This document shows, piece after piece, positions 1,916 through 21,589 of a stretch of DNA of 32,366 nt. Positions within the stretch are counted from its first letter, which is position 1, and each line of letters begins with the position of its first letter. The translations under genes and the position numbers were made by a program. Below the pieces are notes generated by a model. It saw only the letters and a list, made by a program, of their open reading frames with translations. It did not search any database and was not told the origin of the DNA. Location of the stretch: NCBI GenBank assembly GCA_023132135.1, contig JAGLYR010000031.1, positions 1-32,366 on the forward strand. The letters are read 5' to 3'. The DNA comes from Candidatus Eiseniibacteriota bacterium. Lineage in GTDB: Bacteria; Arandabacterota; Arandabacteria; JAGLYR01.

Positions 1916-1979
1916 GGATAGTCTGGGTCTTCGCGGGACACAATACGCGTTTGATACTTTCGTGAGAATCACAGGCTCT

Positions 1980-2050: not shown

Positions 2051-2157
2051 GGGAGCGCTATGTCCCCAGATTCCTCAGGAAAGGGGGGCGGACCAGAAAC
2101 GGGGAGGACTTAAGGGGAACGATATGGGTCTAGTTGAACCGGCAGGGAGCGACTAGG

Positions 2158-3660: not shown

Positions 3661-3750
3661 GCCGACAGATCCTCAGTAGATGTCCCTCCCCAGAACCGCT
3701 GGAGAGTCGGTGAGCCATTGCCGTTCCCGTGCGCGGAAACCCGTCGGCTC

Positions 3751-4563: not shown

Positions 4564-4564
4564 G

Positions 4565-4589
4565 ATTCGTGTGCTTCGTGGACTTCGTG
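4565..4589 (-). repeat. CACGAAG short tandem repeat, copy A
   Basis: On the minus strand three CACGAAG-type heptamers follow with a 9-bp period (+ strand CTTCGTG at 4583-4589 and 4574-4580, variant ATTCGTG at 4565-4571), ending one base before the PgeF-family start codon. Related arrays occur at 4952-4976 and 6934-6957. Confidence 0.8.
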
Positions 4590-4591
4590 GT

Positions 4592-4933
4592 TCAAGCTTC
4601 CGGGTAGAAGGCAAAACCGTACACCGGCTCGCCGTCGCTATCGCGGATAGGCTCCCAGCGGACTTCCACCTGTGTCCCCGTCTCAGCTCCCTCGAAGGTT
4701 ACCCAGCCCATCGCGCGCGCTCCGCCGGCAAACTCCACGATCCCGACCCGTAGGAACCGCTCGTCAAAACCCACGGGGAGCTGGTGAATTTCCGTCAAGG
4801 TCAGCAGAGTGGCCGTGTCGGGCAGGGCGGCTGCCTCGAACGTCTCTCCCCTGCAGTTGAGGCAGCGGAGGCGGGCATACGTCGTGGTACGGCCGCAGTT
4901 GGAGCATTTGTATGCGGGAGGTGCAGGTTGCAT
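4592..4933 (-). CDS. DUF35 zinc-ribbon/OB-fold protein, thiolase partner
   Basis: A 113-aa protein with the two-part DUF35 architecture: an N-terminal rubredoxin-like zinc ribbon with paired cysteines C10-x2-C13 and C24-x2-C27, then an OB-fold of about 75 residues (TATLLTLTEIHQLP through RVGIVEFAGGARAMGWV to the C-terminus). DUF35 proteins form complexes with thiolase-fold enzymes and are thought to bind or channel the acyl-CoA substrate, as in archaeal acetoacetyl-CoA thiolase/HMG-CoA synthase and in steroid or aromatic side-chain degradation. The gene directly follows the thiolase gene on the same strand with 60 bp between them, the usual arrangement. That interval contains CACGAAG repeat copy B. 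Family call is firm; substrate is unknown. Confidence 0.85.
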   Translation of the reverse strand: MQPAPPAYKCSNCGRTTTYARLRCLNCRGETFEAAALPDTATLLTLTEIHQLPVGFDERFLRVGIVEFAGGARAMGWVTFEGAETGTQVEVRWEPIRDSDGEPVYGFAFYPEA

Positions 4934-4951
4934 GGTCAGTTGTCCTTCCTG

Positions 4952-4976
4952 CTTCGTGCCCTTCGTGCTCTTCGTG
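4952..4976 (-). repeat. CACGAAG short tandem repeat, copy B
   Basis: Three perfect CACGAAG units (read as CTTCGTG on the + strand at 4952-4958, 4961-4967 and 4970-4976) with a strict 9-bp period, located in the 60-bp gap between the thiolase and DUF35 genes. Confidence 0.85.
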
Positions 4977-4993
4977 CTTCAGTCTTTTAGGCA

Positions 4994-6172
4994 CTATGTC
5001 TTCTTCAAGACAAAAGCCAACACGTTGTTTCCAAAACCACCGAAGTTGAGCGTAAATCCGGTCTTTGCCTTCTTGACCTGCCGCTGCCCGGCGTCGCCCC
5101 GGAGCTGCTTCGTGATTTCCACCAGCTGCGCGATCCCGGTGGCTCCCACAGGATGACCTCGCGCCTTGAGTCCCCCGGACGGGTTGATCGGCAGCTTCCC
5201 GCCGATCTGTGTCTCCCCCCGTTCCAGCGCCTTGTGCCCCTCGCCCTTGGGGAAGAACCCGGCATGCTCGCTCTCGGCGATCTCGAGGATCGTGAATGCG
5301 TCGTGGAGCTCCGCCACGTCCACCTGATCCGGCCCCACCCGGGCCATCTTGAAAGCCTGCTCCGAGGCCAACGTGACAGCTTTGAGGTCCGTGGGGTCCT
5401 CGCGTTCATGGACAACGTGAGTGTCTGTTGCCTGCCCGACGCCGGCGATGAGGACCGGTTTGTCGGTGAACTGCCCGGCCCGCTCGGCGGCGCAGAGAAC
5501 AAGCCCTGCCGCACCGTCGCTCACCGGACAGCAGTCGAACATCCTCAGCGGATCTGCAACGATGGGATTGTTGACCACGGCTTCGGGACGATGGAGAATG
5601 CCCTCCATTGTGATCCGCTGCTGGACGTGGGCTTCCGGATTGAACATCGCATTGTTGTGGTTCTTGATGGCTACCATGGCCAGGTGTTCGGGCGTGATCC
5701 CGTACTTCTCCATGTACAGGCGGGCAAAGAGTCCCGCCATGGAGGGGAGGGTGACGCCGTAGATGTACTCTGCGAAGGGATGAGTCAGGGTGGCCACGAA
5801 ATCGGTGGATTCCCATCCGTTGACGGCCCGCATCTTCTCGCCGCCGATCACGAGAACCACATCGTAGTAGCCCGCGGCGATCCCGAGAAATGCCATCTTG
5901 ACGGCCGAGGCGCCGGAGGCGGGGCCATTCTCCACCAGTTCGGCGTGGGCCGGAAACAGGCCCAGGCCGTCGACCACGGCGCTCGCAACGCCGCTCTGAT
6001 GGTTCAGGATGCCGGCGCCCATGTTGGCGACGACGACCGCCTGGATTATGGATTCGTCAATTTCCACGTCCGCCAGTGCGGTCCGGGCTCCCTCGACCAG
6101 CAGGTCGATCAGCGGCCACTCCGTTCTTGCGAATTTGGTCTGACCCGCAGCGATGATGGCAACGTCTCTCAT
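4994..6172 (-). CDS. SCP-x/thiolase-like protein lacking the nucleophilic Cys
   Basis: A 392-aa thiolase-superfamily protein of the type paired with DUF35 proteins. Recognisable elements are the N-terminal VAIIAAGQTKFAR, the loop VENGPASGASAVKMA (80-94), VAELHDAFTILEIAE with the catalytic-region His, GGLKARGHPVGATGIAQL with the second His, and the C-terminal NFGGFGNNVLAF. In normal thiolases the loop reads close to VExACASG, with the acyl-accepting Cys; here that position is Pro84 (codon at 5921-5923). The protein may therefore not form a covalent acyl-enzyme and could be a structural partner or use other chemistry. Its ATG overlaps the stop of the upstream GNAT-like gene (ATGA), indicating translational coupling, and the DUF35 gene follows. 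Confidence 0.85.
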   Translation of the reverse strand: MRDVAIIAAGQTKFARTEWPLIDLLVEGARTALADVEIDESIIQAVVVANMGAGILNHQSGVASAVVDGLGLFPAHAELVENGPASGASAVKMAFLGIAAGYYDVVLVIGGEKMRAVNGWESTDFVATLTHPFAEYIYGVTLPSMAGLFARLYMEKYGITPEHLAMVAIKNHNNAMFNPEAHVQQRITMEGILHRPEAVVNNPIVADPLRMFDCCPVSDGAAGLVLCAAERAGQFTDKPVLIAGVGQATDTHVVHEREDPTDLKAVTLASEQAFKMARVGPDQVDVAELHDAFTILEIAESEHAGFFPKGEGHKALERGETQIGGKLPINPSGGLKARGHPVGATGIAQLVEITKQLRGDAGQRQVKKAKTGFTLNFGGFGNNVLAFVLKKT

Positions 6173-6846
6173 TTCGCCCTCCCGCTGACCTGGGTCACGA
6201 GCAAATCGGGATCCGGAATCTCGAAATCGAGCGTGGAGGCCAGCATTTCCTCCGAAACGGGCCGCTCGCCCACCACGAGTCGATCCTTGCTGGCAAAGTA
6301 CAGGTCCCGCGTCAGCGCATAGGACATCACCCCACCCAACTCATGGGCCACGTGGCGCCGCTCCTCCAGTGCGTATTCAATCATCCAGCGCCGGAACCCG
6401 ATGGGGCTCTCAGCCACGACGTAGATTTCCCTTTGGTTCAGATACTCGATGTGGTACTCCATCTTGGCGGCGAAGAGATGCGCCCCCACTCTCAATCCCC
6501 GGTGGAACGCCATCGTATGGAGACTGATCCCGATGTTCCTGCTGAGACTCCGTCCGTTGACGAGTCCCACGAGCATGCCGTTCATCACGCCGACCAGGCA
6601 GTATTCGTCCTTCACCCGGAACCGCTTCCACCCCAGAAGCTCCGAGAACATGCGGGCGCCCACGATGTCGTAGTAGTCGCGTTCGACCCAGATGAGCGGC
6701 TCCAGCACCTCGAGCAGCTTGGGCACTTCTTGCCGCGTGGCCTGGCGCACAATCATCGATTCCCCGCTGGCCAGCACGACCCGCTTGGGGGGATAGGGGG
6801 GCTGTTCGGTCTCTTTGGGTCGCAGTGTGGCTTCCAGTTCGTTCAT
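6169..6846 (-). CDS. GNAT-like N-acetyltransferase, putative
   Basis: A 225-aa protein with the size and pattern of a GNAT-fold acyltransferase: an N-terminal strand-helix (ESMIVRQATRQEVPKLLEVL), a central strand (CLVGVMNGMLVGLVNGRSL), and a motif-A-like turn RGLRVGAHLFAAKMEYH (about 125-141) where acetyl-CoA would bind, then an FRRWMIEYAL segment. The match is structural rather than strong, so the acceptor is unknown. ATG 6846 is chosen because GGAGAG lies 4-9 bases upstream and because the start sits about 25 bp after the expected transcription start of the promoter at 6879-6907. An ATG 30 bases further upstream would start at or before that transcription start. It is the first gene of the minus-strand operon and overlaps the thiolase start. 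Confidence 0.6.
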   Translation of the reverse strand: MNELEATLRPKETEQPPYPPKRVVLASGESMIVRQATRQEVPKLLEVLEPLIWVERDYYDIVGARMFSELLGWKRFRVKDEYCLVGVMNGMLVGLVNGRSLSRNIGISLHTMAFHRGLRVGAHLFAAKMEYHIEYLNQREIYVVAESPIGFRRWMIEYALEERRHVAHELGGVMSYALTRDLYFASKDRLVVGERPVSEEMLASTLDFEIPDPDLLVTQVSGRAK

Positions 6847-6878
6847 GCTGTGCTCTCCGAATCGAGGGTTAGACAATC

Positions 6879-6907
6879 AGTATAGCCGCCGGGGTGGCGG
6901 ATGACAA
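6879..6907 (-). promoter_or_regulatory. Sigma70-type promoter of the thiolase operon
   Basis: On the minus strand, TTGTCA (6902-6907) and TATACT (6879-6884) are separated by exactly 17 bp. Both hexamers are near consensus. Transcription would begin near 6872, about 25 bases before the GNAT-like start codon. Confidence 0.7.
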
Positions 6908-6933
6908 GGGAAACCCGGACAACAGGATTTCAC

Positions 6934-6957
6934 CACGAAGGAGCGAAGAGCACGAAG
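6934..6957 (+). repeat. CACGAAG short tandem repeat, copy C
   Basis: CACGAAG at 6934-6940 and 6951-6957 flank a degenerate AGCGAAG unit (6942-6948). It lies between the divergent promoters of the thiolase operon and the glycosyltransferase gene. Confidence 0.75.
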
Positions 6958-6977
6958 GGAATTCCTTGCTTCGGGGC

Positions 6978-7005
6978 TGGACCAATGATCTTCCTGTGCT
7001 ATAGT
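6978..7005 (+). promoter_or_regulatory. Promoter candidate for the GT-C gene
   Basis: TGGACC (6978-6983), a 16-bp spacer and TATAGT (7000-7005) make a reasonable sigma70-type promoter about 30 bp before the GTG start. An AAGGAGG ribosome binding site follows at 7016-7022. Confidence 0.5.
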
Positions 7006-7034
7006 CGTTTGCCAGAAGGAGGGCTTGGCGGCTC

Positions 7035-8537
7035 GTGTCAACCCGGACGGCATTGCTGGTTACCATCACCGCAGGCGCAACGTTGTTGCGACTGCCCGGG
7101 TTGTTCCACGCCCTGTGGTATGACGAGTTTCTGACTGTCGGTGCGGCTCAGTCTTTCCAGGATCTGCCAACCAAGGTGTTGGAGCACTATCACGCTCCTC
7201 TTTTCCTCGTGCTACTCAACCTTGCGATGAAGATCACAAGCTCAGAGCCGATTTGGCGGACGATTCCCCTTGTCGCCGGCGCGCTCTCGATACCCGCCAT
7301 CTACTTTGTGGGAAGTACGTTGGCCAATCGGCGAGTGGGCCTTGGAGCTTCTGCACTCCTTGCCATCTCGATATTCCATATTGAGCAATCGACGGAGCTG
7401 AGGCCCTACTCGTTCCTCGTCCTGTTCTCGATCCTGTCCGTCGGTTTTTTCTGGCGTGCTCTAAGGACAGGCAGGTGGCGTGACTGGATCCTTCTGTCGT
7501 TCTTCAGCGCGGGAGCTCTGTACACCCACTACGTGAGCCTGTTTCTGACGCTATCCTTGGTTCTCGTCTTCCTGATATTCCTGTGGGTGGGTTTCCCGCG
7601 AGAAGGGGCCACGGCCGGGTTACATCGGCCGCGAGTCATACATCTCGTTGTGGCCGCGGGCTGCATGGTGCTCATGTATGTCCCCGGGCTACCCAGCGTG
7701 TGGGCTCTTGCCGCTCACTACTTCAAGACCGGTGTGGTCGGATTTGCGCCGACGATGAATGTCGGTAGACCGCTGGATCTAGAGTTCCTCAACAAGCTTG
7801 CATTCGAGTTTTCGGGCCGAAGTCTCCATGCTCTTGTACTCTGTGTGTTCATGTTTGGAGTGGGGTTTGTTTCGTGGCTATTGGACAGAGACCGGCGGGC
7901 AATTCTGGTAGGCGTGACTTTTGCTGTCCCCTTCGCTGTGCTTCTGGTGATGCGTCCGGAGCGCTTCCTGGCGCCGCGATACCTGATCTACCTTTTGCCG
8001 CTCTTCCTGGTGACGGTTGCCCACGGGGTCCTGGTCAGCTGGAGCCGGCTGTGGAGCAGATTCTCCGCCAAACAACCGACGGGCGGAGCGGTGGCAGTAG
8101 TTGTCTCGATCTTCGCGGTTCTCACGGTCGCACCGGGTACACAATTGCGTGCGTACGCCCAAGCAGAGGATTGGGAGGACGTGGTGTCCTTCGTCGGCGA
8201 AGTCTCTCTGCCGAGAGAAGCGATCTACGTACATCCCGGTTTCAAGTCTCCCGCTATGCTCAGGAGATACATGGATGACGAGTTGATGAAAAGAACACGG
8301 CTGCGGGGTAAGCTTCCCTACAGGAACCCGAATGCTCTGTTCCTGGGCGGTGCAGACAAGGCGTGGGTGATCTGCCGCCAACCCAATCTCACGCGCAAAG
8401 TGGGGTTGGCGGTTTCGACAGCCCGGGCAGAATCATGCCGAGTGTTTCACATGGTCAATGCACGCGTGACGGTGTGCAGATTCACAACCAAAGAACTGGC
8501 CGCCGAGCTGGCAGAGAGAAGCCGCGGGAAGCGCTAG
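7035..8537 (+). CDS. GT-C membrane glycosyltransferase (PMT/ArnT-like)
   Basis: A 500-aa polytopic membrane protein with about ten hydrophobic segments and the hallmark of the GT39/GT83 lipid-linked-sugar glycosyltransferases: after the first membrane segment comes LWYDEFLTVGAAQSF with the catalytic-type acidic pair D30-E31 facing the periplasm, followed by EHYHAPLFLVLLNLAMK. Such enzymes transfer a sugar from a polyprenyl-phosphate donor to lipid or protein. The soluble C-terminal part (about 380-500) is probably periplasmic. GTG 7035 is chosen on the AAGGAGG at 7016-7022. It is a single-gene unit between the divergent thiolase operon and the molybdenum hydroxylase operon. Acceptor unknown. 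Confidence 0.8.
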   Translation: MSTRTALLVTITAGATLLRLPGLFHALWYDEFLTVGAAQSFQDLPTKVLEHYHAPLFLVLLNLAMKITSSEPIWRTIPLVAGALSIPAIYFVGSTLANRRVGLGASALLAISIFHIEQSTELRPYSFLVLFSILSVGFFWRALRTGRWRDWILLSFFSAGALYTHYVSLFLTLSLVLVFLIFLWVGFPREGATAGLHRPRVIHLVVAAGCMVLMYVPGLPSVWALAAHYFKTGVVGFAPTMNVGRPLDLEFLNKLAFEFSGRSLHALVLCVFMFGVGFVSWLLDRDRRAILVGVTFAVPFAVLLVMRPERFLAPRYLIYLLPLFLVTVAHGVLVSWSRLWSRFSAKQPTGGAVAVVVSIFAVLTVAPGTQLRAYAQAEDWEDVVSFVGEVSLPREAIYVHPGFKSPAMLRRYMDDELMKRTRLRGKLPYRNPNALFLGGADKAWVICRQPNLTRKVGLAVSTARAESCRVFHMVNARVTVCRFTTKELAAELAERSRGKR

Positions 8538-8550
8538 CCCGCATTTCTGC

Positions 8551-8579
8551 TGGAATGCCATTGGTTTCAGTGATATTCT
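8551..8579 (+). promoter_or_regulatory. Weak promoter candidate for the molybdenum hydroxylase operon
   Basis: TATTCT (8574-8579) is a fair -10 element; a poor -35 (TGGAAT at 8551-8556) sits 17 bp upstream. It lies in the only gap of the 7.0-8.6 kb region, about 43 bp ahead of the first catabolic gene. An activator may compensate for the weak -35. Confidence 0.3.
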
Positions 8580-8621
8580 GACCGTCCAACGCTGAGTTCA
8601 CTTCCGAAGAGGAGGCCCAGG

Positions 8622-9452
8622 GTGTTTCCTCCCTTCAGATACTTCAAGCCCAAACGGATCGAAGAGGTCACCGCGTTCCTCGCCGAGCACGGAGAGTCCG
8701 CGCGCATCCTGGCCGGTGGGACGGATCTCCTTGTCGGAATGCGAAGGGGTGAGTTCACCCCGGACGTCCTCATCGACATTAAGGGAATCCCCGAACTTCA
8801 GAATCTGAGCGCGGACAATGGAACCCTGCCCATCGGAGCAGCGGTTTCCGTCAACGATCTCCTGGATTCGGCGGAGGTCGCCGCGCTGTTTCCCATCCTC
8901 ATCCAGACGGCGCTCAGGATGGCATCCCATCAGATCCGGAACCGCGCCACGGTGGTGGGGAACCTCTGCAACGCATCCCCCGCGGCGGACATGGGCGCCG
9001 CGCTTCTGGCGCTGGGCGCGCGGGTCACGATTGCGAGTCCCCGAAGCAGGCGGGTGCTCCCACTGGGAGAATTCTTCACGGGAGTCAAGAAATCCGCCCT
9101 GGGCCGGGACGAGTGGGTGATCTCTGTGGAGGCGGACACGCCTCCGCCCGGGAGCAGGATGGGATTTCTCAAGCAGGCGCGCGTTCGGGGGCCGGATCTC
9201 TCGACTGTCAACTGCGCGGCCGTGCTCTTGCCGGACGGCGCGCTCACGCTTGTGCTGGGCGCGGTGGCCGAGACGCCGGTCGTAGTAACGGGTTGTGGAT
9301 CCGACAAGGGCAATGGAATTGCGGATCGGGTCCGGGAGGCTATTGCCCCCATCGACGATGTGAGAGGGTCGGCCGAGTACCGGATGGATCTCGCCTGCCT
9401 CATGACGCGACGGATGGTCGAGAAGCTCACCGCGGATTCCCGGAGAGGATAG
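8622..9452 (+). CDS. Molybdenum hydroxylase FAD-binding (medium) subunit
   Basis: A 276-aa protein of the CoxM/XdhB family, which passes electrons from the iron-sulfur subunit to FAD. The N-terminal pattern FKPKRIEEVTAFLAEHG followed by ARILAGGTDLLVGMRRGE (about 29-46) is the FAD pyrophosphate-binding motif; RNRATVVGNLCNASPAADM (about 107-125) is the second FAD motif, and LLALGARVTI follows. Length matches the family (about 270-290). GTG start with a GA-rich ribosome binding site about 10 bases upstream. It opens an operon in the order medium, small, large subunit; the small-subunit start follows 6 bp after the stop. Confidence 0.9.
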   Translation: MFPPFRYFKPKRIEEVTAFLAEHGESARILAGGTDLLVGMRRGEFTPDVLIDIKGIPELQNLSADNGTLPIGAAVSVNDLLDSAEVAALFPILIQTALRMASHQIRNRATVVGNLCNASPAADMGAALLALGARVTIASPRSRRVLPLGEFFTGVKKSALGRDEWVISVEADTPPPGSRMGFLKQARVRGPDLSTVNCAAVLLPDGALTLVLGAVAETPVVVTGCGSDKGNGIADRVREAIAPIDDVRGSAEYRMDLACLMTRRMVEKLTADSRRG

Positions 9453-9458
9453 GGATCG

Positions 9459-9947
9459 GTGGACAGTCACACGATCGAATTCGAGATCAATGGCAAACGC
9501 GCATCGCTTGAGGTGGTGAGCCACAGAACCCTGCTCCAGGTTCTCCGGGAGGACCTTCACCTCTCCGGCACGAAGGAGGGGTGCGGTGAGGGCGAGTGCG
9601 GGGCATGCACCGTCCTGGTGGACGGCCGCAGTGTTACTGCATGCCTGACACTGGCGGTGGAAGTGGACGGCTGTTCTGTCCGTACGATCGAGGGAGAGAG
9701 TGAGGGACCGGACCTGAGCCCGCTTCAGGAAGCCTTTGTGAAAAATCATGCCCTGCAGTGCGGGTTCTGCACGCCGGGAATGATCATGTCCGCCAGGGCT
9801 CTCCTGGAACGGAATCCTTCCCCGACGGAGGATCAGATCAAGGAGGCAATAGCGGGCAATCTCTGCCGGTGCACAGGTTACCGGCCCATCATCCAGGCGA
9901 TTCGTGAAGCAGCAGCAAGACGAAAGGACCAGAGCGCGAAAGGGTGA
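9459..9947 (+). CDS. Molybdenum hydroxylase [2Fe-2S] (small) subunit
   Basis: A 162-aa CoxS/XdhC-type iron-sulfur subunit. The plant-ferredoxin-like N-terminal cluster is bound by C42, C47, C50 and C62 (GCGEGECGACTV...TAC) and the C-terminal helical-bundle cluster by C101, C104, C136 and C138 (LQCGFCTPGM and NLCRCTGY). All eight ligands are present, so the electron path from the molybdenum centre to FAD should be intact. GTG start. The stop at 9945-9947 is 4 bases from the start of the large subunit, supporting co-translation. Confidence 0.93.
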   Translation: MDSHTIEFEINGKRASLEVVSHRTLLQVLREDLHLSGTKEGCGEGECGACTVLVDGRSVTACLTLAVEVDGCSVRTIEGESEGPDLSPLQEAFVKNHALQCGFCTPGMIMSARALLERNPSPTEDQIKEAIAGNLCRCTGYRPIIQAIREAAARRKDQSAKG

Positions 9948-9951
9948 AAGC

Positions 9952-12294
9952 GTGAGCGAGGGGTTGATCGGCAAGGGTGTTCCCAGGATCGAGAGCTTTG
10001 AGAAGGTGACGGGAACCGCCCGGTTTGTCGGAGACATGGACCTTCCCGGAATGCTCCATGGGAGGATGCTCCTGAGTCCCCACGCCCACGCGCGCATTGT
10101 CCGGATAGACACTTCGAAAGCGGAATCCCTGGATGGTGTTGCAGCTGTTCTGGTCGGGGAGGAGCTTCCCTACCGGCTGGGACTCTACATGGTGGACAAA
10201 CCGGTGCTGGCGAGTGGGAAAGTCCGGCACCACGGGGAGGTGGTCGCCGCGGTGGCCGCCGTGAGCGAGGAGATTGCGGCCCGGGCCGCAGATCTCATCG
10301 AAGTCACTTACGAACCGCTGGCGGCCGTGTTTGACCCGGTGGAGGCTGTGAAGCCCGATGCCCCCCTGGTCCATGAGGATCTCCATACCTACCATACAAT
10401 CAAGGGTGTCTTCTTCCCCAGGCCCCACACGAATATCGCCAATCATGCCCGTCTCCGGAAGGGAGATGTCGAAGAAGGGTTCGCCGCCGCCGATGCGATT
10501 GTCGAGAACGAGTTCAGTTTGCCCCAGGTAGCGCATGTTCCTCTGGAAACCCACAGAACGGTAGCGCACTGGAAGCGCAATGGGGCCATTGAAATATGGA
10601 GCAGCGCGCAGTCTCCCTTTGCCGTGCGGAATCTTCTGAGCGTGGCGCTCGGGATGTCCCATTCCAGGATTCGCGTGGTGGTTCCCCATGTTGGAGGCGC
10701 CTTCGGCGGAAAGGCGGGAATCCACCTGGAGCCGTTGGTTTCGCTTCTCTCGCGCAAGGCGGGACACCGGCCGGTGAAACTGGCAGCCACCCGCGAGGAG
10801 GAGTTCAGCACACTTCCGTGCAGGCAGGGCCTGGTGGCCCGGATCAAGACGGGAGTCACAAAGGAAGGGAAAATCACGGCTCAGAAGATCGAGTACCTGT
10901 GGGACGCCGGGGCGTACGCCGACTACGGTGTCAACATCGGCCGGGCCGCCGGCTACTCGGGCGCCGGGCCCTACGACATTGACAATGTGTGGATCGACTC
11001 TCTCACGATCTACACCAATCGCCCCTTCGGTACAGCCTACAGGGGATTCGGCCACGTCGAGTTTTTCTGGGCCATCGAGCGGCAGATGGATATGGTCGCC
11101 CGGGAAATCGGGATGGATTCCTGCGATTTCCGAATGAGAAACCTCCTGAGGCCGGGCTCGGTCACCATCACGGGCGAGGAGATCACGGAGAACACAGGAA
11201 GTGTTGAGAAGTGCCTCGAGGCGGTGGCCGCGGAGGTTGGGTGGAAGGAGAGGTCATCGCTCGGAAGCGGTGGCAACGGGAAGGTCCGCGCCAGGGGCAT
11301 AGCGGTTCTCCACAAAGCGCCGGCGATGCCGTCGAACACGGCGATCTCGGCGATTCTCAAGTTCAACGAGGACGCGACTGTCGACCTCATGATCAGCGGG
11401 GTGGACTACGGGCAGGGCACGGCAACGGCCTTCTGTCAGATGACGGCCGAGCACCTGCGGATCCCGATGGAGAATGTCCATTTCATCTGGAACAAGGACA
11501 CCGACCGCATGCCCTACGACTGGCAAACCGTGGCCAGTCGCCTCACCTTCATGGGTGGGAACGCAGTGATCCGGGCGGCGGAGGACTGCGTGTCTCAGCT
11601 CAAGGACATGGCCTCCAGAGCTCTCGATGTTCCCGTCGGGGATCTTGAGATCCAGGACGGGAAAGTCTTTGTGGCGCGTGAGCCGGCCAGGTCCATCGAC
11701 TACCGGGCTCTGGTGATGGGCTACATGTTCCCGAGCGGCAACTCCATCGGCGGTCCCGTGATAGGCCGGGGAACCTGCATTGCCGAGGGGCTCACGGTCC
11801 TCGATCCTGAGACCGGCCAAGGGCTTCCCGCTGCCAACTGGACGTTCGGAGCGCATGGCGTAGAGATCGAAATCGACACCGCTACAGGTGAGATCCAGGT
11901 CCTGAAGCTAGCTTCGGCCTTCGATGTGGGCAGGGTCATCAACGAGGCTCTCTGCCGGGGACAGGTGGTTGGAGGGTGCCTTCAGGGTTTGGGGACGGCA
12001 TTGCTCGAGACCTTCATCTACAATGATGAGGGATGCCTGATCAACAATTCCTTCACGGACTACAAGATTCCCACCGCAAGGGACATTCCCATCGAGACGA
12101 AGGAGATTTTCATAGAGACCCCCCAGCTCAACGGCCCCCACGGAGCGCGGGGCGTGGCCGAGCATCCCATGATTTCCATCCCTTCAGCCGTGGGCAATGC
12201 AATCGCCGATGCACTCGGTGTCGAGATCATGGAACTTCCACTTTCCCCGGAGCGGGTGTACCTGGCGCTCAAACGGAAGGGGAACAGGGATTGA
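9952..12294 (+). CDS. Molybdenum hydroxylase large (molybdopterin) subunit
   Basis: A 780-aa catalytic subunit of the xanthine dehydrogenase/aldehyde oxidase family, containing the cytosine- or guanine-dinucleotide molybdopterin site. Visible landmarks are GKGVPRIESFEKVTGTARF at the N-terminus, VPHVGGAFGGKAGIHLEP (cofactor loop), TAYRGFGHVEFFWAIERQM, VDYGQGTATAFCQM, QTVASRLTFMGG, FDVGRVIN, and near the end HGARGVAEHPMISIP, whose Glu is the family's catalytic base. The CO-dehydrogenase active-site loop (AYRCSFR) is absent, so this is a hydroxylase of an N-heterocycle or aldehyde rather than a CO dehydrogenase. GTG 9952 is preferred because it follows AAAGGG and avoids the 44-bp overlap that ATG 9904 would need. 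No XdhC-type maturation chaperone is in the window. Confidence 0.92.
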   Translation: MSEGLIGKGVPRIESFEKVTGTARFVGDMDLPGMLHGRMLLSPHAHARIVRIDTSKAESLDGVAAVLVGEELPYRLGLYMVDKPVLASGKVRHHGEVVAAVAAVSEEIAARAADLIEVTYEPLAAVFDPVEAVKPDAPLVHEDLHTYHTIKGVFFPRPHTNIANHARLRKGDVEEGFAAADAIVENEFSLPQVAHVPLETHRTVAHWKRNGAIEIWSSAQSPFAVRNLLSVALGMSHSRIRVVVPHVGGAFGGKAGIHLEPLVSLLSRKAGHRPVKLAATREEEFSTLPCRQGLVARIKTGVTKEGKITAQKIEYLWDAGAYADYGVNIGRAAGYSGAGPYDIDNVWIDSLTIYTNRPFGTAYRGFGHVEFFWAIERQMDMVAREIGMDSCDFRMRNLLRPGSVTITGEEITENTGSVEKCLEAVAAEVGWKERSSLGSGGNGKVRARGIAVLHKAPAMPSNTAISAILKFNEDATVDLMISGVDYGQGTATAFCQMTAEHLRIPMENVHFIWNKDTDRMPYDWQTVASRLTFMGGNAVIRAAEDCVSQLKDMASRALDVPVGDLEIQDGKVFVAREPARSIDYRALVMGYMFPSGNSIGGPVIGRGTCIAEGLTVLDPETGQGLPAANWTFGAHGVEIEIDTATGEIQVLKLASAFDVGRVINEALCRGQVVGGCLQGLGTALLETFIYNDEGCLINNSFTDYKIPTARDIPIETKEIFIETPQLNGPHGARGVAEHPMISIPSAVGNAIADALGVEIMELPLSPERVYLALKRKGNRD

Positions 12295-13106
12295 TCGAAC
12301 GGGTCGCCACCTCGGTCAGCCGTTCCCTTCTGTCGGGTCTCCCGGAATCACCACACGACGGAATCGTGCACTCCGTGTTCGCCCGGGCCGTGAACCTGGA
12401 ATGGGGATGCGACGGATGGGTCTCCCTTCTGGAAGAGCCCCTGCCCCTGAACCCGTGGGCGGTTCGGCTGAAAAACCTCCCGCAGCTCGGGCGGGGCAAT
12501 CCCTGTGTGATCTCCCGCCGGGACATCCTCTTCCCGCACCGGGCAATGCGGATTGATCTGGAGATGTGTGTCCCGGTTGATCTGGGCATGCGCCCGGAGA
12601 CGTCCGTGGATCCGGATTTTGTCCGGGCGCGATGTCGGCCGTTGATGGATCTGGAGAGTCGCGGACAGGATACGGATCCATTCCGGCTTCGCGCTCGCGA
12701 GATCCTGGACGACGTCCAGCTGGCGAAGAGTGGGACCCGGGCGGCTCAACACCTGTTCTCCCTCGTGGGGCTGGGCAGCGGTCTGACTCCGGCCGGCGAT
12801 GATTTCCTTGCCGGTTTCCTCGCGGCATCGGTATTCTTCGGTGCGGCGGCTGTTGAGCGGGATTTCCTGGTCGGCGCTCTTTCGAAAAATGCCGGCCCGC
12901 GAACGACGGACGTGAGCCGGCGAATGCTGCTCGCGGCCTGCAGGTGTGAGTTTGCCGAGCCTGTCGGGCGCCTTCTGAGGTCGATCGTTCGCCCCGGCAA
13001 CGGAGTGGAAGAATCGGCCCGGGAACTCCTCGCTCTGGGCGGATCGTCCGGCGCCGACACGCTGGCCGGGATCCTATTCTGTGTCCGGGAGTTCCTGAAA
13101 GGATAG
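12291..13106 (+). CDS. allH: AllH (YlbF, DUF2877) oxamate carbamoyltransferase component
   Basis: A 271-aa DUF2877 protein, the same length I recall for E. coli YlbF/AllH. The family signature GLGSGLTPAGDD (residues 161-171 region, preceded by Leu-Val) is intact, with a conserved GGSSGADTLAG near the C-terminus. AllF (FdrA), AllG (YlbE) and AllH (YlbF) together have been reported as the oxamic transcarbamylase that splits oxalurate into oxamate and carbamoyl phosphate at the end of anaerobic allantoin breakdown. The start is TTG 12291, overlapping the TGA of the large hydroxylase subunit, which couples the two genes tightly. AllF follows 3 bp downstream. The match to the family is good; the carbamoyl substrate here is inferred. 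Confidence 0.85.
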   Translation: MIERVATSVSRSLLSGLPESPHDGIVHSVFARAVNLEWGCDGWVSLLEEPLPLNPWAVRLKNLPQLGRGNPCVISRRDILFPHRAMRIDLEMCVPVDLGMRPETSVDPDFVRARCRPLMDLESRGQDTDPFRLRAREILDDVQLAKSGTRAAQHLFSLVGLGSGLTPAGDDFLAGFLAASVFFGAAAVERDFLVGALSKNAGPRTTDVSRRMLLAACRCEFAEPVGRLLRSIVRPGNGVEESARELLALGGSSGADTLAGILFCVREFLKG

Positions 13107-13109
13107 AAG

Positions 13110-14657
13110 TTGAAGAAGATCCGGATCAGGAAGGGTGTGTACTGCGATTCCGTCAGGCTTCTCCTGCTTTCGAGGGAGATGGGGGACCTTGACGGCGTGG
13201 ACCGCGCCATGGCGGCGATGGCCACACCCACGAACCTGGAAATCTTGGGTCAGTTGGGCTGGTCGCTGGAGGAAATCGGGGACGTGGCGGAGAACGATCT
13301 CCTGGCCGCAGTGGATGCCGCCGACGAACGTACTCTGGATGCGGCATTTCAGTGGCTGGAGACCCGGTTGAAGGAGCGAGTCTCCGGCACCGGAAAAGGG
13401 TATCACCCCAGGACGCTTCGCACAGCGGTGGCGGACGCGCCGTCCGCCAACCTGGTGCAGATTTCCATCCCCGGCGCCTACGCTTTCCGTGAGGCAAAGC
13501 GGGCCCTCATGAACGACAAGCACGTCATGCTCTTCAGCGACAATGTTTCCATCGAGGAGGAAGTCGCTCTCAAGGATCTGGCCGGAGACCGGGGACTCCT
13601 GCTCATGGGTCCGGACTGCGGGACAGCCATCATCAACGGTGTGTGCCTCGGTTTTGCCAACGTGGTTCCGAGGGGGCCGGTGGGGATTGTTGCCGCCTCG
13701 GGAACGGGCGCGCAGGAGATCAGCGTGCTCCTGGCGCGGGGTGGCATTGGAGTGTCGCAGCTCATCGGGACCGGCGGTCGCGATCTCTCCCGAAAGGTCG
13801 CAGGACGCGCGATGCGACTGGGTCTGCGGGCTCTGGCGGCGGACCCGGAGACCGAGGTGATGGTACTGGTTTCCAAGCCGCCGGAGCCGGAGGTGGCGGA
13901 GAGGATCCTGACAGACGCCGCATCGTGCGCGAAACCCGTGATCGTCAACTTCCTGGGGGAAAATCCGGATCGCATCACGCGGGGAAACGTCCGCGGAGCA
14001 GGGAATCTCGAGGAAGCAGCGCAGCTGGCGATTCAGGCGGCGGGCAGGCGGGCGATCTCTCTCGGGGAGGGCGGAGTCCCGGCACTCGTGGAACAGGAAC
14101 GATCCAGGCTCAAGCCGGGTCAGCGTTTTCTCCGCGGTCTCTTCGTGGGCGGGACGCTCGCGGACGAGGCGATGTTGCTTCTCAAAACCGAACTGGGCAC
14201 ACTCTACTCCAACAGCCCGGTTCCGGGATGCACACTGCTGGTGGACAGCAGTGTGAGTCGCGGCCACACGGTCCTGGACCTGGGTGCGGACGAGTTCACA
14301 GTGGGGCGGGCCCACCCGATGATCGACCCGACGCTGCGGAACTTCCGGATTGTGGAGGAAGCGATGGATTCGGAGGTAGCCGTTCTCCTTCTGGACGTGG
14401 TCCTGGGGTACGGGTCCCACGCGGATCCCGCGGGGGCAACGGCGGGGGCGGTGGAAGAGGCGCGCGGGATGGCCCGGAAGGATGATAGGGATCTCGTTGT
14501 GGTGGCCAGCGTGTGCGGTACGGAGGGGGATCCGCAGAACCTGGACGAGCAGGAGCAGAAGCTTCGGGATGTGGGGGTGCGGGTGTTTGCCAGCAATGCG
14601 CAGGCGTGCCGGTTCTGTCGCGAACTGCTGAGGTCAGGACATGCAGAGGATTCTTGA
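13110..14657 (+). CDS. fdrA: FdrA/AllF, acyl-CoA-synthetase-like carbamoyltransferase component
   Basis: A 515-aa FdrA-family protein built like succinyl-CoA ligase alpha chains. A family-specific N-terminus (IRKGVYCDSVRLLLLSREM) is followed by a CoA-ligase-type fold with ISIPGAYAFREAKRAL, LLLMGPDCGTAIINGV (about 163-178), VGIVAASGTGAQEISVLLA and IGTGGRDLS, then a second flavodoxin-like domain with FVGGTLADEAM and HPMIDPTLRN. E. coli FdrA is longer (about 555 aa); the missing C-terminal segment is encoded as a separate small gene that overlaps this stop by 17 bp (14641-14814). TTG start at 13110, 3 bp after the allH stop, with AAAGGA upstream. Component of the oxamate/oxalurate carbamoyltransferase by homology. 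Confidence 0.88.
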   Translation: MKKIRIRKGVYCDSVRLLLLSREMGDLDGVDRAMAAMATPTNLEILGQLGWSLEEIGDVAENDLLAAVDAADERTLDAAFQWLETRLKERVSGTGKGYHPRTLRTAVADAPSANLVQISIPGAYAFREAKRALMNDKHVMLFSDNVSIEEEVALKDLAGDRGLLLMGPDCGTAIINGVCLGFANVVPRGPVGIVAASGTGAQEISVLLARGGIGVSQLIGTGGRDLSRKVAGRAMRLGLRALAADPETEVMVLVSKPPEPEVAERILTDAASCAKPVIVNFLGENPDRITRGNVRGAGNLEEAAQLAIQAAGRRAISLGEGGVPALVEQERSRLKPGQRFLRGLFVGGTLADEAMLLLKTELGTLYSNSPVPGCTLLVDSSVSRGHTVLDLGADEFTVGRAHPMIDPTLRNFRIVEEAMDSEVAVLLLDVVLGYGSHADPAGATAGAVEEARGMARKDDRDLVVVASVCGTEGDPQNLDEQEQKLRDVGVRVFASNAQACRFCRELLRSGHAEDS

Positions 14658-14814
14658 TTTGTTCAGCCAAGACCTGTCGGTGATCAATCTCGGTCTGGAA
14701 GGATTCGGTGACGCTCTCACGGATCAGGGGGTCGACGTCGTACAGATGGACTGGCGCCCCCCGGCTGGAGGAGATCGGGATCTGATGAAGATCCTCGATC
14801 AGATGGAGGAATAG
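14641..14814 (+). CDS. 57-aa FdrA C-terminal-domain protein (split domain)
   Basis: A small gene with ATG 14641 and TAG 14812-14814, starting inside the last codons of fdrA (17-bp overlap, different frame) and ending 1 base before the allG GTG. The product, starting MQRILDLFSQDLSVINLGLE, then containing VDVVQMDWRPPAGGD, matches my recollection of the C-terminal segment of long FdrA proteins and of the short 'fdrA domain' proteins annotated in some genomes. The placement, with an AGG-rich ribosome binding site and overlaps on both sides, argues it is translated as a distinct subunit rather than being a sequencing frameshift, but a frameshifted fusion cannot be excluded. 515 plus 57 residues is close to the length of fused FdrA. 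Confidence 0.75.
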   Translation: MQRILDLFSQDLSVINLGLEGFGDALTDQGVDVVQMDWRPPAGGDRDLMKILDQMEE

Positions 14815-14815
14815 C

Positions 14816-16060
14816 GTGGGCGAGATCGAAGAGGCGAACAGGAAGGCTATGGATATCCTGCTCCAGGCCAAACCCGTCCTGAAGGGAATTGGAGTCGCGG
14901 GGAAGGACATCCCCGGGATGACGAAGACGACCATCCTTCACGCCGGCCCACCCATCGAGTGGGAGCGGATGTGCGGGCCCATGCGGGGCGCGGTGATGGG
15001 GGCCCTCCTCTACGAACGTATGGCGTCGTCCCTGGAGGAGGCCGAAGAACTGGCCGCTTCGGGCGACATCACGTACGAGCCCTGCCACCACCACCAGACG
15101 GTCGGACCGATGGCAGGGATCGTGTCCGCCTCCATGCCCGTCTGGATCGTGGAGAACGAGACGCACGGGAACCGCGCCTACTGCACGCTGAACGAAGGAC
15201 TCGGAAAAGTCCTGCGCTACGGCGGTCTGGGGGACGAAGTCATCCAGCGCTTGAGATGGATGGAGGGAACCCTGGCGCCGGCCCTGGCGCGAGCTCTGGA
15301 GCTTCATGGAGATATCGATCTTCGAACCCTGATCGCGCAGGCCCTGGAAATGGGGGATGAGGGCCATAACCGGAACCGGGCGGGAACGTCCCTGCTAATC
15401 CGGACCTTGGCTCCTCACATTGCCTCGGTCGCGGAATCCCCCGCGGTTGCGTCCGAAGTACTGGGTTTCCTCGCCGCCAACGACCACTTTTTCCTGAATC
15501 TCACTATGCCGGCGGCCAAGTGCAGCCTTGATCCCATCGCAGACATACCGGGAAGCACGGTCGTCTCCGCCATGTCCCGAAACGGGACCGAGTTCGGGAT
15601 CCGGGTGAGCGGTCTGGGAGGCCGGTGGTTTACGGCTCCCGCCCCCGAGGTCGATGGACTCTACTTCCCCGGGTACACGGCGGATGATGCCAATCCCGAT
15701 ATCGGGGACAGTGTCATTTGTGAAACGGCCGGGTTCGGGGGATTCGCAATGGCATCGGCCCCGGCCATCGTCCAGTTTGTGGGAGGAAGCGTGGATCTGG
15801 CGGTCAACTCCACCCGCGAGATGTATGAAATCACACTTGCGGAGCACCCGTTCTATCGAGTGCCCGTTCTGGACTTCCGGGGAACGCCCACGGGCATCGA
15901 TGTCCGGCGGGTCGTGGAAACCATGATCCCCCCCGTCATCAACACGGGGATTGCTCACAAGGATCCCGGTGTCGGCCAGGTGGGCGCCGGGCTCGTGAAA
16001 CCTCCGATGACATGTTTTGAGGATGCACTGAGAGCGTTTGCCGACGAGAGGAGTTCGTGA
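14816..16060 (+). CDS. allG: AllG (YlbE, DUF1116) oxamate carbamoyltransferase component
   Basis: A 414-aa DUF1116 protein, close to E. coli YlbE/AllG (about 419 aa). Conserved blocks are TILHAGPPIEWERMCGPMRG near the N-terminus, ITYEPCHHHQTVGPMAGI, VENETHGNRAYCTLNEGLGK, MGDEGHNRNRAGTSLL, and the C-terminal FGIRVSGLGGRWFTAPAP, GDSVICETAGFGGFAMASAP and NTGIAHKDPGVGQVGAG. Together with AllF and AllH it should form the carbamoyltransferase that acts on an N-carbamoyl acid and releases carbamoyl phosphate. GTG 14816 has GGAGGA at ideal distance. Its stop overlaps the start of the cyclase gene (ATGA-type, 16058-16062). Confidence 0.9.
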   Translation: MGEIEEANRKAMDILLQAKPVLKGIGVAGKDIPGMTKTTILHAGPPIEWERMCGPMRGAVMGALLYERMASSLEEAEELAASGDITYEPCHHHQTVGPMAGIVSASMPVWIVENETHGNRAYCTLNEGLGKVLRYGGLGDEVIQRLRWMEGTLAPALARALELHGDIDLRTLIAQALEMGDEGHNRNRAGTSLLIRTLAPHIASVAESPAVASEVLGFLAANDHFFLNLTMPAAKCSLDPIADIPGSTVVSAMSRNGTEFGIRVSGLGGRWFTAPAPEVDGLYFPGYTADDANPDIGDSVICETAGFGGFAMASAPAIVQFVGGSVDLAVNSTREMYEITLAEHPFYRVPVLDFRGTPTGIDVRRVVETMIPPVINTGIAHKDPGVGQVGAGLVKPPMTCFEDALRAFADERSS

Positions 16061-16908
16061 TGGTCAAATTCCGTCTGATAGATCTGACACAGCCTCTGAG
16101 TGTGATGACGCCACCCTGGCCTACGTATGAGCCCCTGCAGCTCAAGTTCTTCAAACGGCTGGCCCCCAACGGAGCCAACGGGCAGATCATCACCACCAGC
16201 AATCACGTGGGGACTCATCTGGACGGTCCCGTCCACTTCTGCACCCATGGCGGCGACATCGCCAGCCTCCCTCTCAATGACTATCTCTGCGGGCCAGGCG
16301 CGGTGGTCGATCTCAGCGACATGGCCGAGGACTACGGCATCTATACCTCGAAGGACGTGGAGGACCGTGTCGAGGTCAAACAGGGCGACATCCTTGTCAT
16401 CAACACCGGCTATCACAAATACGCCTGGGACCAGCCGAAAGCGGATGAAGTCCGTTACATGATCCGCCATCCCGGGCCCACGATGGAATTCGCCCGCTGG
16501 TGCAAGAAGAAGAAGCTGAAATGGCTCGGGTTGGACTGCGGATCGGCGGACCATCCGATGAACACCAAGATCCGGGACTGGATGCCCCGGGAGGCAGCCA
16601 GGGCCGACCGGTTCCTCAAGAAAAAGCACGGCAAGGGTCTCGATGAGTTCTTCTCGGAGGACCACTACCAGCTCATGCACGTCGCACTGTTCCACATCCC
16701 TATCGTCCATGCAGAGAATCTGGGCGGGGACATCGACCTGCTGCTCAACCGGCGTGTCCAGATTGGCTGCTTCCCGTGGAGGTTTGTGGATGGGGAGTCC
16801 AGCATCTGCCGGATCGTGGCCTTTGTGGAGGAAAGAGAACACCGGCTGCTGATGGCTAGGAAGAAGAAGGCGAAGAAGACCCGCTTTGGGGATGTGGTTC
16901 CGAAATAG
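16060..16908 (+). CDS. Cyclase-family metal-dependent hydrolase
   Basis: A 282-aa member of the cyclase/KynB-like hydrolase family (kynurenine formamidase, isatin hydrolase and relatives), which uses divalent metal to hydrolyse amides or cyclic amides. The metal motif HVGTHLDGPVH is complete (H49, H53, D55, H59), and LGLDCGSADHPMN and EDHYQLMHVALFHIPIVHAENLGG supply the later family segments. It is longer than typical members (about 210-260) and ends with a basic tail (ARKKKAKKTRF). ATG 16060 is preferred over GTG 16057 because GAGGAG precedes it and the ATG overlaps the allG stop. As the last gene of the operon it is a good candidate for ring opening of the hydroxylated heterocycle made by the molybdenum enzyme; this is inference. 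Confidence 0.85.
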   Translation: MVKFRLIDLTQPLSVMTPPWPTYEPLQLKFFKRLAPNGANGQIITTSNHVGTHLDGPVHFCTHGGDIASLPLNDYLCGPGAVVDLSDMAEDYGIYTSKDVEDRVEVKQGDILVINTGYHKYAWDQPKADEVRYMIRHPGPTMEFARWCKKKKLKWLGLDCGSADHPMNTKIRDWMPREAARADRFLKKKHGKGLDEFFSEDHYQLMHVALFHIPIVHAENLGGDIDLLLNRRVQIGCFPWRFVDGESSICRIVAFVEEREHRLLMARKKKAKKTRFGDVVPK

Positions 16909-17022: not shown

Positions 17023-17991
17023 GTGGTCACAGCCGCACAGAGGGTCAGGCTGGGGATTTTCCTGGTGGTTGCCGCGACGCTCCTGGCCATTACTCTCGGC
17101 GTTGTCGCCGGGGGCAAACTCATGGAGCGGAGGGACCACTATGCGATCCGGTACAGGGACTTGTCCGTCGGCGGGCTCGAGCCCGGTGCGGACGTGAAGT
17201 ACAGCGGGATCCGCGTGGGGCGGGTGGACGACATCCGGATCGATCCGGAGGATGTGGCGACCGTGATCGTCGAGGTCAGTGTCCGGCAGGGCACCCCGAT
17301 CAAGGAGGACTCCGAGGCCACCATCGTCACGATGGGAATCACGGGGATGAAAACCATCGAAATCCGGGGAGGAACCCAGACATCGGCTTTGCTGTCCCCC
17401 GGGAGCGAGATCCCTGCCGGCGTCTCTGCGTTCGATGCAATCAGCGGCCGCGCCGAGATTGTTGGGGAGAAGGTCGAACAGGTTCTCAATAACCTTATCG
17501 AGCTCACCGGCGGAGAGAACCGCAATCACTTCATTGACCTGTTGTCCAACGGCGCCAGACTGGTGGCCACGCTGGACACTCTTCTGGTCCGGAACCAATC
17601 TTCGCTGGAGATGTCCATCGGCAACCTCGCGCAGCTCACGGAGGAGCTGACCGAGACCACGCGCGTCATCCGGAGCGCCGTCACGGCTGTCGACAGTCTC
17701 ATGAACAGCCCGTCGTTCCACAACACCTTCGCTAACTTGGAAGATGTGTCCGGGGATCTGAGCGAGGCCGACTTCGGCGCGCTGGCGGCCGATCTTTCGG
17801 AGGCAGCCCGGCAGGCCAATCTGACGTTTACCCGTTTGGATCTCACAGTTCTCAAGGGCCGCCAGGACATTCTCCAATCCCTCGAGTCCCTGCGAGAGGG
17901 GATGGAGTACTTCAACGAGTTTGCGCGGCTGATCGCGGAGAACCCGTCCCTTATTCTGCGCGGCAAAAAAGCGGAAGAGATCGAAGAGTAG
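17023..17991 (+). CDS. mlaD: MCE-domain (MlaD-family) lipid-transport protein
   Basis: A 322-aa protein with one N-terminal membrane anchor (RLGIFLVVAATLLAITLGVVA, about 8-28), an MCE domain (about 36-120; DLSVGGLEPGADVKYSGIRV, GRVDDIRIDPEDV, ATIVTMGITGMKTIEIRGG), and a long mostly helical C-terminal region to residue 322. MCE proteins form hexameric rings in the periplasm that shuttle phospholipids or other lipids between inner and outer membranes. GTG 17023 follows GAGGTGA. It is the first gene of an operon that also encodes the lipoprotein, an outer-membrane candidate, the permease and the ATPase. Its TAG stop is the first three bases of a dispersed repeat (17989-18009). Confidence 0.9.
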   Translation: MVTAAQRVRLGIFLVVAATLLAITLGVVAGGKLMERRDHYAIRYRDLSVGGLEPGADVKYSGIRVGRVDDIRIDPEDVATVIVEVSVRQGTPIKEDSEATIVTMGITGMKTIEIRGGTQTSALLSPGSEIPAGVSAFDAISGRAEIVGEKVEQVLNNLIELTGGENRNHFIDLLSNGARLVATLDTLLVRNQSSLEMSIGNLAQLTEELTETTRVIRSAVTAVDSLMNSPSFHNTFANLEDVSGDLSEADFGALAADLSEAARQANLTFTRLDLTVLKGRQDILQSLESLREGMEYFNEFARLIAENPSLILRGKKAEEIEE

Positions 17992-18009
17992 CCTGGATTA
18001 TTCAGGAAT
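17989..18009 (+). repeat. Dispersed TTATTCA repeat, copy 1 (supplies mlaD stop)
   Basis: The 18-mer CCTGGATTATTCAGGAAT (17992-18009), preceded by TAG, recurs with one mismatch at 26073-26090 and two mismatches at 29865-29882. Here the TAG is the stop codon of the MCE gene. Confidence 0.75.
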
Positions 18010-18044
18010 GGGTATGCCAGCTATGTGCTAGTGCGTTGTCGGAC

Positions 18045-18147
18045 AGGAGAATAGACAATAGAGAATAGACCGCAATAGAGAAGTGTGAATGTGTTTCTAT
18101 GATGCTCTTGTCCGGGATCTATTTTCTATTATCTACTTCTCTATTGC
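18045..18147. repeat. AATAGA-rich inverted repeat
   Basis: GCAATAGAGAAGT (18072-18084) and ACTTCTCTATTGC (18135-18147) are perfect 13-bp inverted arms. Further AATAGA units precede the left arm (18050-18068) and their complements precede the right arm (18118-18132), so the whole segment is a low-complexity, short-period repeat folded on itself. It lies in the 218-bp gap between the MCE and lipoprotein genes and holds no gene. Confidence 0.75.
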
Positions 18148-18150
18148 TCT

Positions 18151-18196
18151 GCCTGGACTTTGTACAAATCCTCCCGGATTTGTGCATAGTCCAGGC
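18151..18196 (+). repeat. 21-bp-arm hairpin abutting the lipoprotein ribosome binding site
   Basis: The arms 18151-18171 and 18176-18196 pair over 21 bp with two mismatches around a TCCC loop. The outer ends (GCCTGGA and TCCAGGC, then TAG) match the ends of the dispersed TTATTCA repeat, so it is probably a diverged member. The AGGAG ribosome binding site (18198-18202) begins two bases after the hairpin, so folding could influence translation of the lipoprotein. Confidence 0.75.
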
Positions 18197-18209
18197 TAGG
18201 AGAATGGGA

Positions 18210-18893
18210 ATGAGGGGTTGCGGACGATTCGGGCAATGGGTGAAGGCCGTTCTCATGGTGGTCTGGGCCGGTTCTGTTCTCGGGTGCGGAGCCAAGGTGC
18301 AGAGCACGAAGCTGTACCTGATGGACTACGAGCCCATCATCCGCCAGGCGGAAGAGGCTCGGGGTCCGCTTCCATACAGAGTCCAGGTCCGGGATTTCAA
18401 GATCCCCAGGACGTTCGACCGGACCCGGATCGTGTACCGCTACTCACCGCACGAGCTCAACTACTACAGGTACTACCAGTGGGCAGTGCCGCCGAGAGTC
18501 ATGATCACCGATCTGGTCGAAGGACACATAGCAGCTTCGGGTATGTTCGAGATCGTCCGGCGCGAGTTCTGGGACGAGCGTCCCGACTATGAGATCACCG
18601 GTACTATCGCGGCGCTGGAGAAATTCGAGAGCGGGGATTTCGGCGGGGCCCACCTGGCGATGAAGATGGAGCTCATCCGGAGCAGCGACAACGCGACTGT
18701 GGTTGCGCACGAATTCGACCGGGAGGTGGAGCTCCGGAATCCAGCTATGACTTTTTTCGCCCAGAAACTGAGTGAGATCCTCGAAGGAGAGGTGGAGATC
18801 TTTCTCCAGGCCATCGACCTGTACTTCTACCCGCCGGAAGCCGAGGAAGAGCCGGAGGATCTCCCCGTGGAACCTTTCCCCCCATTGCAGTAG
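18210..18893 (+). CDS. ABC-type transport auxiliary lipoprotein (PqiC/DUF330-like)
   Basis: A 227-aa lipoprotein. A charged start and hydrophobic stretch (MRGCGRFGQWVKAVLMVVWA) lead to the lipobox SVLGC, so the mature protein begins at Cys with GAKVQSTKLYLMDYEP. The mature part has the family pattern of the PqiC/YmbA-type lipoprotein that accompanies MCE transporters: YRVQVRDFKIPRTFDRTRIVYR, YYRYYQWAVPPRVMITDLVE, and YEITGTIAALEKFESGD. These anchor in the outer membrane and dock MCE assemblies. ATG 18210 is favoured over ATG 18204 because AGGAG at 18198-18202 is 7 nt away; frames further upstream run through the hairpin repeat. The C-terminus is acidic and Pro/Glu-rich. Confidence 0.8.
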   Translation: MRGCGRFGQWVKAVLMVVWAGSVLGCGAKVQSTKLYLMDYEPIIRQAEEARGPLPYRVQVRDFKIPRTFDRTRIVYRYSPHELNYYRYYQWAVPPRVMITDLVEGHIAASGMFEIVRREFWDERPDYEITGTIAALEKFESGDFGGAHLAMKMELIRSSDNATVVAHEFDREVELRNPAMTFFAQKLSEILEGEVEIFLQAIDLYFYPPEAEEEPEDLPVEPFPPLQ

Positions 18894-18914
18894 ACAGCCC
18901 GGGAGGTAACTGGT

Positions 18915-20453: not shown

Positions 20454-20464
20454 GGTGGTGAGAA

Positions 20465-21559: not shown

Positions 21560-21589
21560 CCCGAGCCAGTATCGGAGTGATCGGGATTC

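Follow-up and report, generated by a model that had tools for sequence, protein, structure and literature searches.

What would a bacterium break down with an operon that combines a molybdenum (Mo) hydroxylase, a carbamoyltransferase of the AllFGH type and a cyclase-family hydrolase? This question is raised by contig JAGLYR010000031.1 of a little-known anaerobic Candidatus Eiseniibacteriota bacterium, a 32,366-nucleotide stretch of DNA (the window, meaning that whole stretch) in which eight open reading frames (ORFs), all on the + strand, occupy positions 8622-16908 and are separated by gaps of 1-6 bp or overlap by 4-17 bp. An initial annotation of this DNA proposed that these genes encode a single pathway of Mo-dependent hydroxylation, ring opening by the cyclase and release of carbamoyl phosphate, and it left the substrate open beyond rejecting the usual allantoin route. 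The analysis described here suggests that the operon probably encodes a variant of the oxidative pyrimidine pathway that would operate anaerobically and by phosphorolysis, leading from uracil to carbamoyl phosphate usable for ATP.

In the proposed scheme, the three-subunit Mo hydroxylase would hydroxylate C6 of uracil (or thymine) to give (methyl)barbiturate, and the cyclase-family metal hydrolase would open the barbiturate imide to ureidomalonate, an acylurea that exceeds oxalurate by one CH2 group. AllF, AllG and AllH, together with a separately encoded FdrA C-terminal piece, would phosphorolyse ureidomalonate to malonamate and carbamoyl phosphate, which a carbamate kinase encoded elsewhere in the genome could convert to ATP, CO2 and NH3. 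Malonamate would then undergo deamidation, and decarboxylation of the malonyl part would bring it to the acetate level (malonate/acetyl-CoA). In relatives, this last step could be carried out by an amidase or nitrilase plus a class III CoA-transferase, a malonate decarboxylase, or a Na+-pumping malonyl/methylmalonyl-CoA decarboxylase; in the window, the proposed replacement is a module of GNAT, Cys-less thiolase and OB-fold proteins. These reactions and substrates are proposed from the gene content, linkage, conservation, active-site residues and folds described below.

Gene content and conservation of the operon

The eight co-directional, tightly spaced genes of the initial annotation are borne out by ORF coordinates and by Pfam and NCBIfam profiles. 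The genes were said to be fused, which holds in the sense of one operon and not in that of a gene fusion; two starts were corrected, to ~9952 for the Mo gene and to 12291 for AllH. The hydroxylase consists of an FAD subunit (8622..9452; PF00941, FAD_binding_5, 1.9e-47), a 2Fe-2S subunit (9459..9947; PF01799, Fer2_2, 1.3e-34) and a Mo-cofactor subunit (9952..12294; PF02738 and PF20256, MoCoBD_1/2), the putative uracil/pyrimidine 6-hydroxylase. The carbamoyltransferase genes follow, and all three subunits are recognized: AllH (DUF2877; 12291..13106; PF11392, 3.6e-25), AllF/FdrA (13110..14657; PRK06091, 492 bits against a cut-off of 433), the FdrA C-terminal domain as a separate ORF (14641..14814; PRK06091 positions 506-554, 2e-11) and AllG (DUF1116; 14816..16060; PF06545, 1.3e-100). 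The last gene encodes the cyclase-family metal hydrolase (16057..16908; PF04199, 1.4e-33), the candidate barbiturate ring-opening enzyme.

This arrangement is not due to chance. Among eight genomes of the class that were searched (a widened search within the phylum returned the identical eight), AllG occurs in five, including that of the window, and all five keep the eight genes in identical order (relatives L010, L011, L012 and L013). A scan with the cyclase found at least 580 relatives, and the best 80 by cyclase similarity, taken as named loci, come mainly from anaerobes of the Spirochaetota, Bacillota, Chloroflexota, Synergistota, Thermotogota, Atribacterota and other groups, the nearest named relative being Candidatus Eisenbacteria. 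Of these 80 loci, 48 extend for 5 kb or more to each side of the cyclase; among them, AllG is found in 46, AllF in 41, the Mo subunit in 33 and AllH, which is hard to detect, in 26. Gene order is reshuffled among loci from many phyla, which indicates that selection, and not descent alone, maintains the linkage. The initial annotation would have given up the single pathway if orthologous clusters mostly lacked the hydroxylase or the cyclase; instead, the genes stay together across many phyla, and this linkage supports a common pathway.

The E. coli AllFGH enzyme is a proven acylurea carbamoyltransferase, converting oxalurate and Pi to oxamate and carbamoyl phosphate (PMC11326118). The FdrA C-terminal domain always sits between AllF and AllG, in the cyclase loci as in E. 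coli, and the way it is attached varies: it forms the C-terminal part of AllF in E. coli and the N-terminal part of AllG in 39 loci and of YahG, and it is separate in 13-15 loci and the window, while in five loci (L051, L070, L089, L091 and L093) AllF, the domain and AllG form one protein of ~1040 residues with the FdrA domain in the middle. This constant position despite varied fusions provides good evidence that AllF, AllG and the domain work as one complex. A tree of AllG with distant references has long branches and singles out no E. coli paralogue as closest. As the initial annotation stated, the window contains neither a carbamate kinase nor the XdhC chaperone; a search of the rest of the genome located both, the kinase on contig C344 and XdhC on contig C345. 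A carbamate kinase is also found in six related clusters.

Active sites and neighbouring genes as clues to the substrate

The window enzyme has the three-subunit FAD/FeS/Mo architecture of xanthine dehydrogenase (XDH), and its active site lacks the xanthine-binding glutamate of XDH. Residues are numbered here as in the bovine enzyme (XOR), in which Glu802 is the glutamate that binds xanthine. The corresponding position, after GGK, is Ala in the window and Ala in 38 and Ser in one of 39 cluster homologues; an XDH-type enzyme of this same genome (own_Xdh2) has Glu there. Arg880 is kept in the window and in all 39 cluster Mo subunits, and the catalytic glutamate is also kept in the window, with Glu-His at that place in 35 of the 39. 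In the cyclase, the HxGTHxD...H metal motif and a distal His/Glu are invariant in 24 aligned sequences, and the fold matches isatin hydrolase and kynurenine formamidase.

The strongest clues to the substrate come from relatives rather than from the window itself. In 22 of 25 loci the cluster permeases have UraA/RutG of E. coli, not XanQ/UacT, as their closest match, and four of them score 440-513 bits to UraA. Cytosine deaminase is encoded in three loci (L030, L060 and L078) and cytosine permease in two (L060 and L075). A full malonate decarboxylase operon lies downstream of the cyclase in two related Bacillota (L029 and L035, loci that are 90% identical); MdcA of L029 reaches 887 bits, where the cut-off is 789, and MdcC, MdcD and MdcE (the delta, beta and gamma subunits) are likewise above curated cut-offs. 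MmdA, the malonyl/methylmalonyl-CoA decarboxylase alpha subunit, and the Na+-pump beta subunit are encoded inside the clusters of Carboxydothermus islandicus (L034), L072 and L079, and the amidases of the spirochaete clusters, members of a broad family, match malonamidase E2 (1e-40). The allB, allC, allD and allE genes are not among the scanned window neighbours. The earlier rejection of the usual allantoin route stands, and the uracil permeases, cytosine deaminases and malonate or malonyl-CoA decarboxylases now narrow the substrate to pyrimidines (uracil/barbiturate).

Haloarchaeal plasmids point independently to pyrimidines. On them, a cyclase of 50% identity is accompanied by a distant Mo hydroxylase, XdhC and NCS2/nucleobase permeases, to which Halostagnicola larsenii adds cytosine deaminase and codB; no AllFGH is annotated near these haloarchaeal cyclases. 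A 41%-identical homologue on Rhodococcus ruber plasmid NZ_CP145321.1 (L009 and L015) has Rieske oxygenases, hydrolases of the nitrilase type and distant DUF1116 proteins in its vicinity, a set that may represent another heterocycle pathway.

A divergent module and the rest of the window

Overlooked by the initial annotation was a divergent module of three genes on the - strand (4592-6876) that is linked to the operon. It encodes a GNAT-fold protein, X227 (6169..6876), a thiolase-like protein (4994..6172; PF22691, 1.2e-45) and an OB-fold/zinc-ribbon partner of the ChsH2/DUF35 type (4592..4933; PF01796, 4.8e-07). X227 is 67% identical to its linked orthologs in relatives, and its AlphaFold model (pLDDT 90.8) matches GNAT proteins in general by Foldseek, with no specific family. 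The thiolase-like protein has Pro at the position of the nucleophilic Cys, as do 17 of 17 aligned homologues, so it is not an ordinary thiolase.

Among relatives, a class III CoA-transferase, usually accompanied by an amidase or nitrilase, is found in 24 loci and the three-gene module in 17, and the two never occur together (hypergeometric P = 0.001, ignoring kinship), with at least six switches between them on the cyclase tree. The genome of the window has no match to the CoA-transferase of the clusters. This mutual exclusivity suggests that the module does an equivalent job in malonamate/malonate processing and that it probably handles the malonyl product. For the thiolase-like protein the likeliest role, proposed with low confidence, would be stabilization of an acetyl-CoA enolate in a decarboxylation or a retro-aldol-type reaction.

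Module and operon are separated by a glycosyltransferase-like gene (7035-8537), and a PF02578 (Cu-oxidase_4, multi-copper polyphenol oxidoreductase) gene lies directly behind the OB-fold gene (3751-4614, - strand). Directly downstream of the operon is an ordinary, unrelated MlaD/MlaE/ABC lipid-transport-like set (17023-22339). The window also encodes a gingipain-like C25 peptidase with FlgD-Ig and C-terminal sorting domains (29911-32271), and C25 peptidase-like genes on contig C345 and in relatives suggest a Por/type IX-like secretion system in the phylum.

Alternative substrates and relation to known pathways

Several observations weigh against a uracil pathway. The Mo hydroxylase is missing from the examined stretch in 15 of the 48 loci, and outside the class linkage was measured from one side only, the loci having been picked by cyclase similarity. 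In the genome of the window no UraA-type permease was found, its sole NCS2 protein being GhxQ-like; its MmdA-like gene is on another contig and not by the operon; no malonate decarboxylase adjoins the operon as it does in the two Bacillota; and the role of the three-gene module is assigned by exclusion. In relatives, the cluster CoA-transferases are nearest to CoA:oxalate CoA-transferase (YfdE), under its cut-off; the permeases of three Synergistota clusters are nearest to UacT/XanQ; and there are PucR neighbours, which are annotated for purine regulation.

The likeness to YfdE would fit a route in which the Mo enzyme oxidizes hydantoin to parabanate, the cyclase yields oxalurate, AllFGH acts as a true oxamate carbamoyltransferase, and oxamate is converted to oxalate for activation by CoA:oxalate CoA-transferase. 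E. coli AllFGH has this oxamate carbamoyltransferase activity (PMC11326118), and parabanate induces an oxamate transcarbamylase in a Streptococcus, as cited in PMC3364942. Oxalyl-CoA decarboxylase, however, was not found in the 80 loci, where malonate decarboxylase occurs instead, and the route provides no role for the clustered uracil permeases, cytosine deaminases, and malonate and malonyl-CoA decarboxylases. We consider this route unlikely, and an oxalurate/oxalate end was rejected.

Somewhat less likely again is a purine route, in which the Mo enzyme would be a xanthine dehydrogenase and the cyclase would open a purine or its imidazole product. The XDH-like architecture, the PucR neighbours and the few UacT/XanQ-like permeases would be accommodated, but the glutamate of XDH is replaced throughout the cluster enzymes, and guanine deaminase has no match in the 80 loci. 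Moreover, this genome has a separate locus set that already fits such a function: on C345, XdhC is flanked by two further Mo hydroxylases, both of the XDH type, and accompanied by a hydantoinase and a YgeW-like carbamoyltransferase, and on C344 the carbamate kinase lies beside another YgeW-like carbamoyltransferase and a weakly YgeX-like lyase. In content this set is similar to the E. coli pathway of reductive urate breakdown (PMC12507026). The loss of Glu802 and this second locus led to rejection of xanthine or another purine as substrate; given the second locus, purines and pyrimidines would be handled by distinct loci that share the carbamate kinase and the maturation chaperone.

Least probable of the three is that the linked genes serve a xenobiotic or unusual imide (e.g. 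a cyanurate-like compound or a methylated pyrimidine) with uracil as a side substrate only, since the clusters occur in many natural anaerobes and are linked to uracil permease, cytosine deaminase and malonate decarboxylase, even though enterobacterial and Aeromonas plasmids that pair AllH-AllF-AllG with AtzD, a permease and carbamate kinase indicate that AllFGH-type enzymes serve more than one acylurea. On the Aeromonas plasmid (L112; NZ_CP118989.1 198621-213847, positions 1567-9210) these genes are AtzD, a cyanuric acid hydrolase above the equivalog cut-off, an NCS2 permease, AllH-AllF-AllG and carbamate kinase. AtzD proteins of at least 95% identity occur in ~47 plasmid records, chiefly of Citrobacter, Klebsiella, Enterobacter, Leclercia and Raoultella, and such clusters are predicted to let their hosts use cyanurate, with biuret or carboxybiuret being cleaved by phosphorolysis.

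The usual account of anaerobic pyrimidine breakdown is a reductive one, and no published description of this cluster or pathway was found in a literature search that excluded preprints and most subscription journals. On balance, we lean towards a widespread, undescribed oxidative fermentation of uracil, perhaps also of thymine, in which carbamoyl phosphate would supply ATP and, in some hosts, malonyl-CoA decarboxylation would build up a Na+ gradient. The barbiturase would belong to a new family, the ureidomalonate carbamoyltransferase would likewise be new and, in this lineage, the malonyl product would be taken to the acetyl level by a complex of Cys-less thiolase, GNAT and OB-fold proteins. 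Such a second, energy-conserving route in many anaerobic phyla would explain the use of nucleic-acid debris by sediment and digester bacteria and give functions to hundreds of genes annotated as 'xanthine dehydrogenase', 'cyclase family' or 'DUF1116'. It would also make the AllFGH type a general family of acylurea carbamoyltransferases, with members acting on oxalurate, on ureidomalonate and possibly on biuret.

An oxidative route that takes uracil through barbiturate and ureidomalonate to malonate has long been known; the barbiturase in it has a different fold, and urea is set free in its final step (PMC3758960, PMC7662398). The proposed pathway would share the intermediates of this system (uracil dehydrogenase, barbiturase and ureidomalonase), with a cyclase-family enzyme in place of the AtzD/Bar-fold barbiturase and a phosphorolytic, energy-conserving enzyme in place of the hydrolytic ureidomalonase; a search of the window's genome for an AtzD/Bar-type barbiturase gave no match, as did a control search, which likewise matched nowhere. 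With the reductive urate pathway of the E. coli yge cluster (PMC12507026), the operon shares a logic in which an enzyme of the Mo hydroxylase family is combined with a ring-opening hydrolase, a carbamoyltransferase and a carbamate kinase, whereas the enzymes differ and a locus of the yge type exists separately in this genome. The window cyclase has the fold and metal motif of isatin hydrolase and kynurenine formamidase (KynB; PF04199), at ~20% identity and with another substrate proposed. Compared with AllFGH of the E. coli allantoin pathway, the three protein families are the same and the chemistry is expected to be so (acylurea plus phosphate to amide plus carbamoyl phosphate), with 40-48% identity for AllF and AllG and ~33% over part of AllH; the window differs in its H-F-G order, its detached FdrA C-terminus, and its Mo hydroxylase and cyclase partners in place of allantoin genes. 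E. coli yahEFG-yahI has the same H-F-G order, its YahG begins with the FdrA C-terminal domain, a carbamate kinase-like gene is nearby, and its AllG and AllF are 52% and 45% identical to those of the window; unlike the window, this K-12 locus (L102, 333500-344000) has no adjoining Mo hydroxylase or cyclase, and its substrate may be another acylurea.

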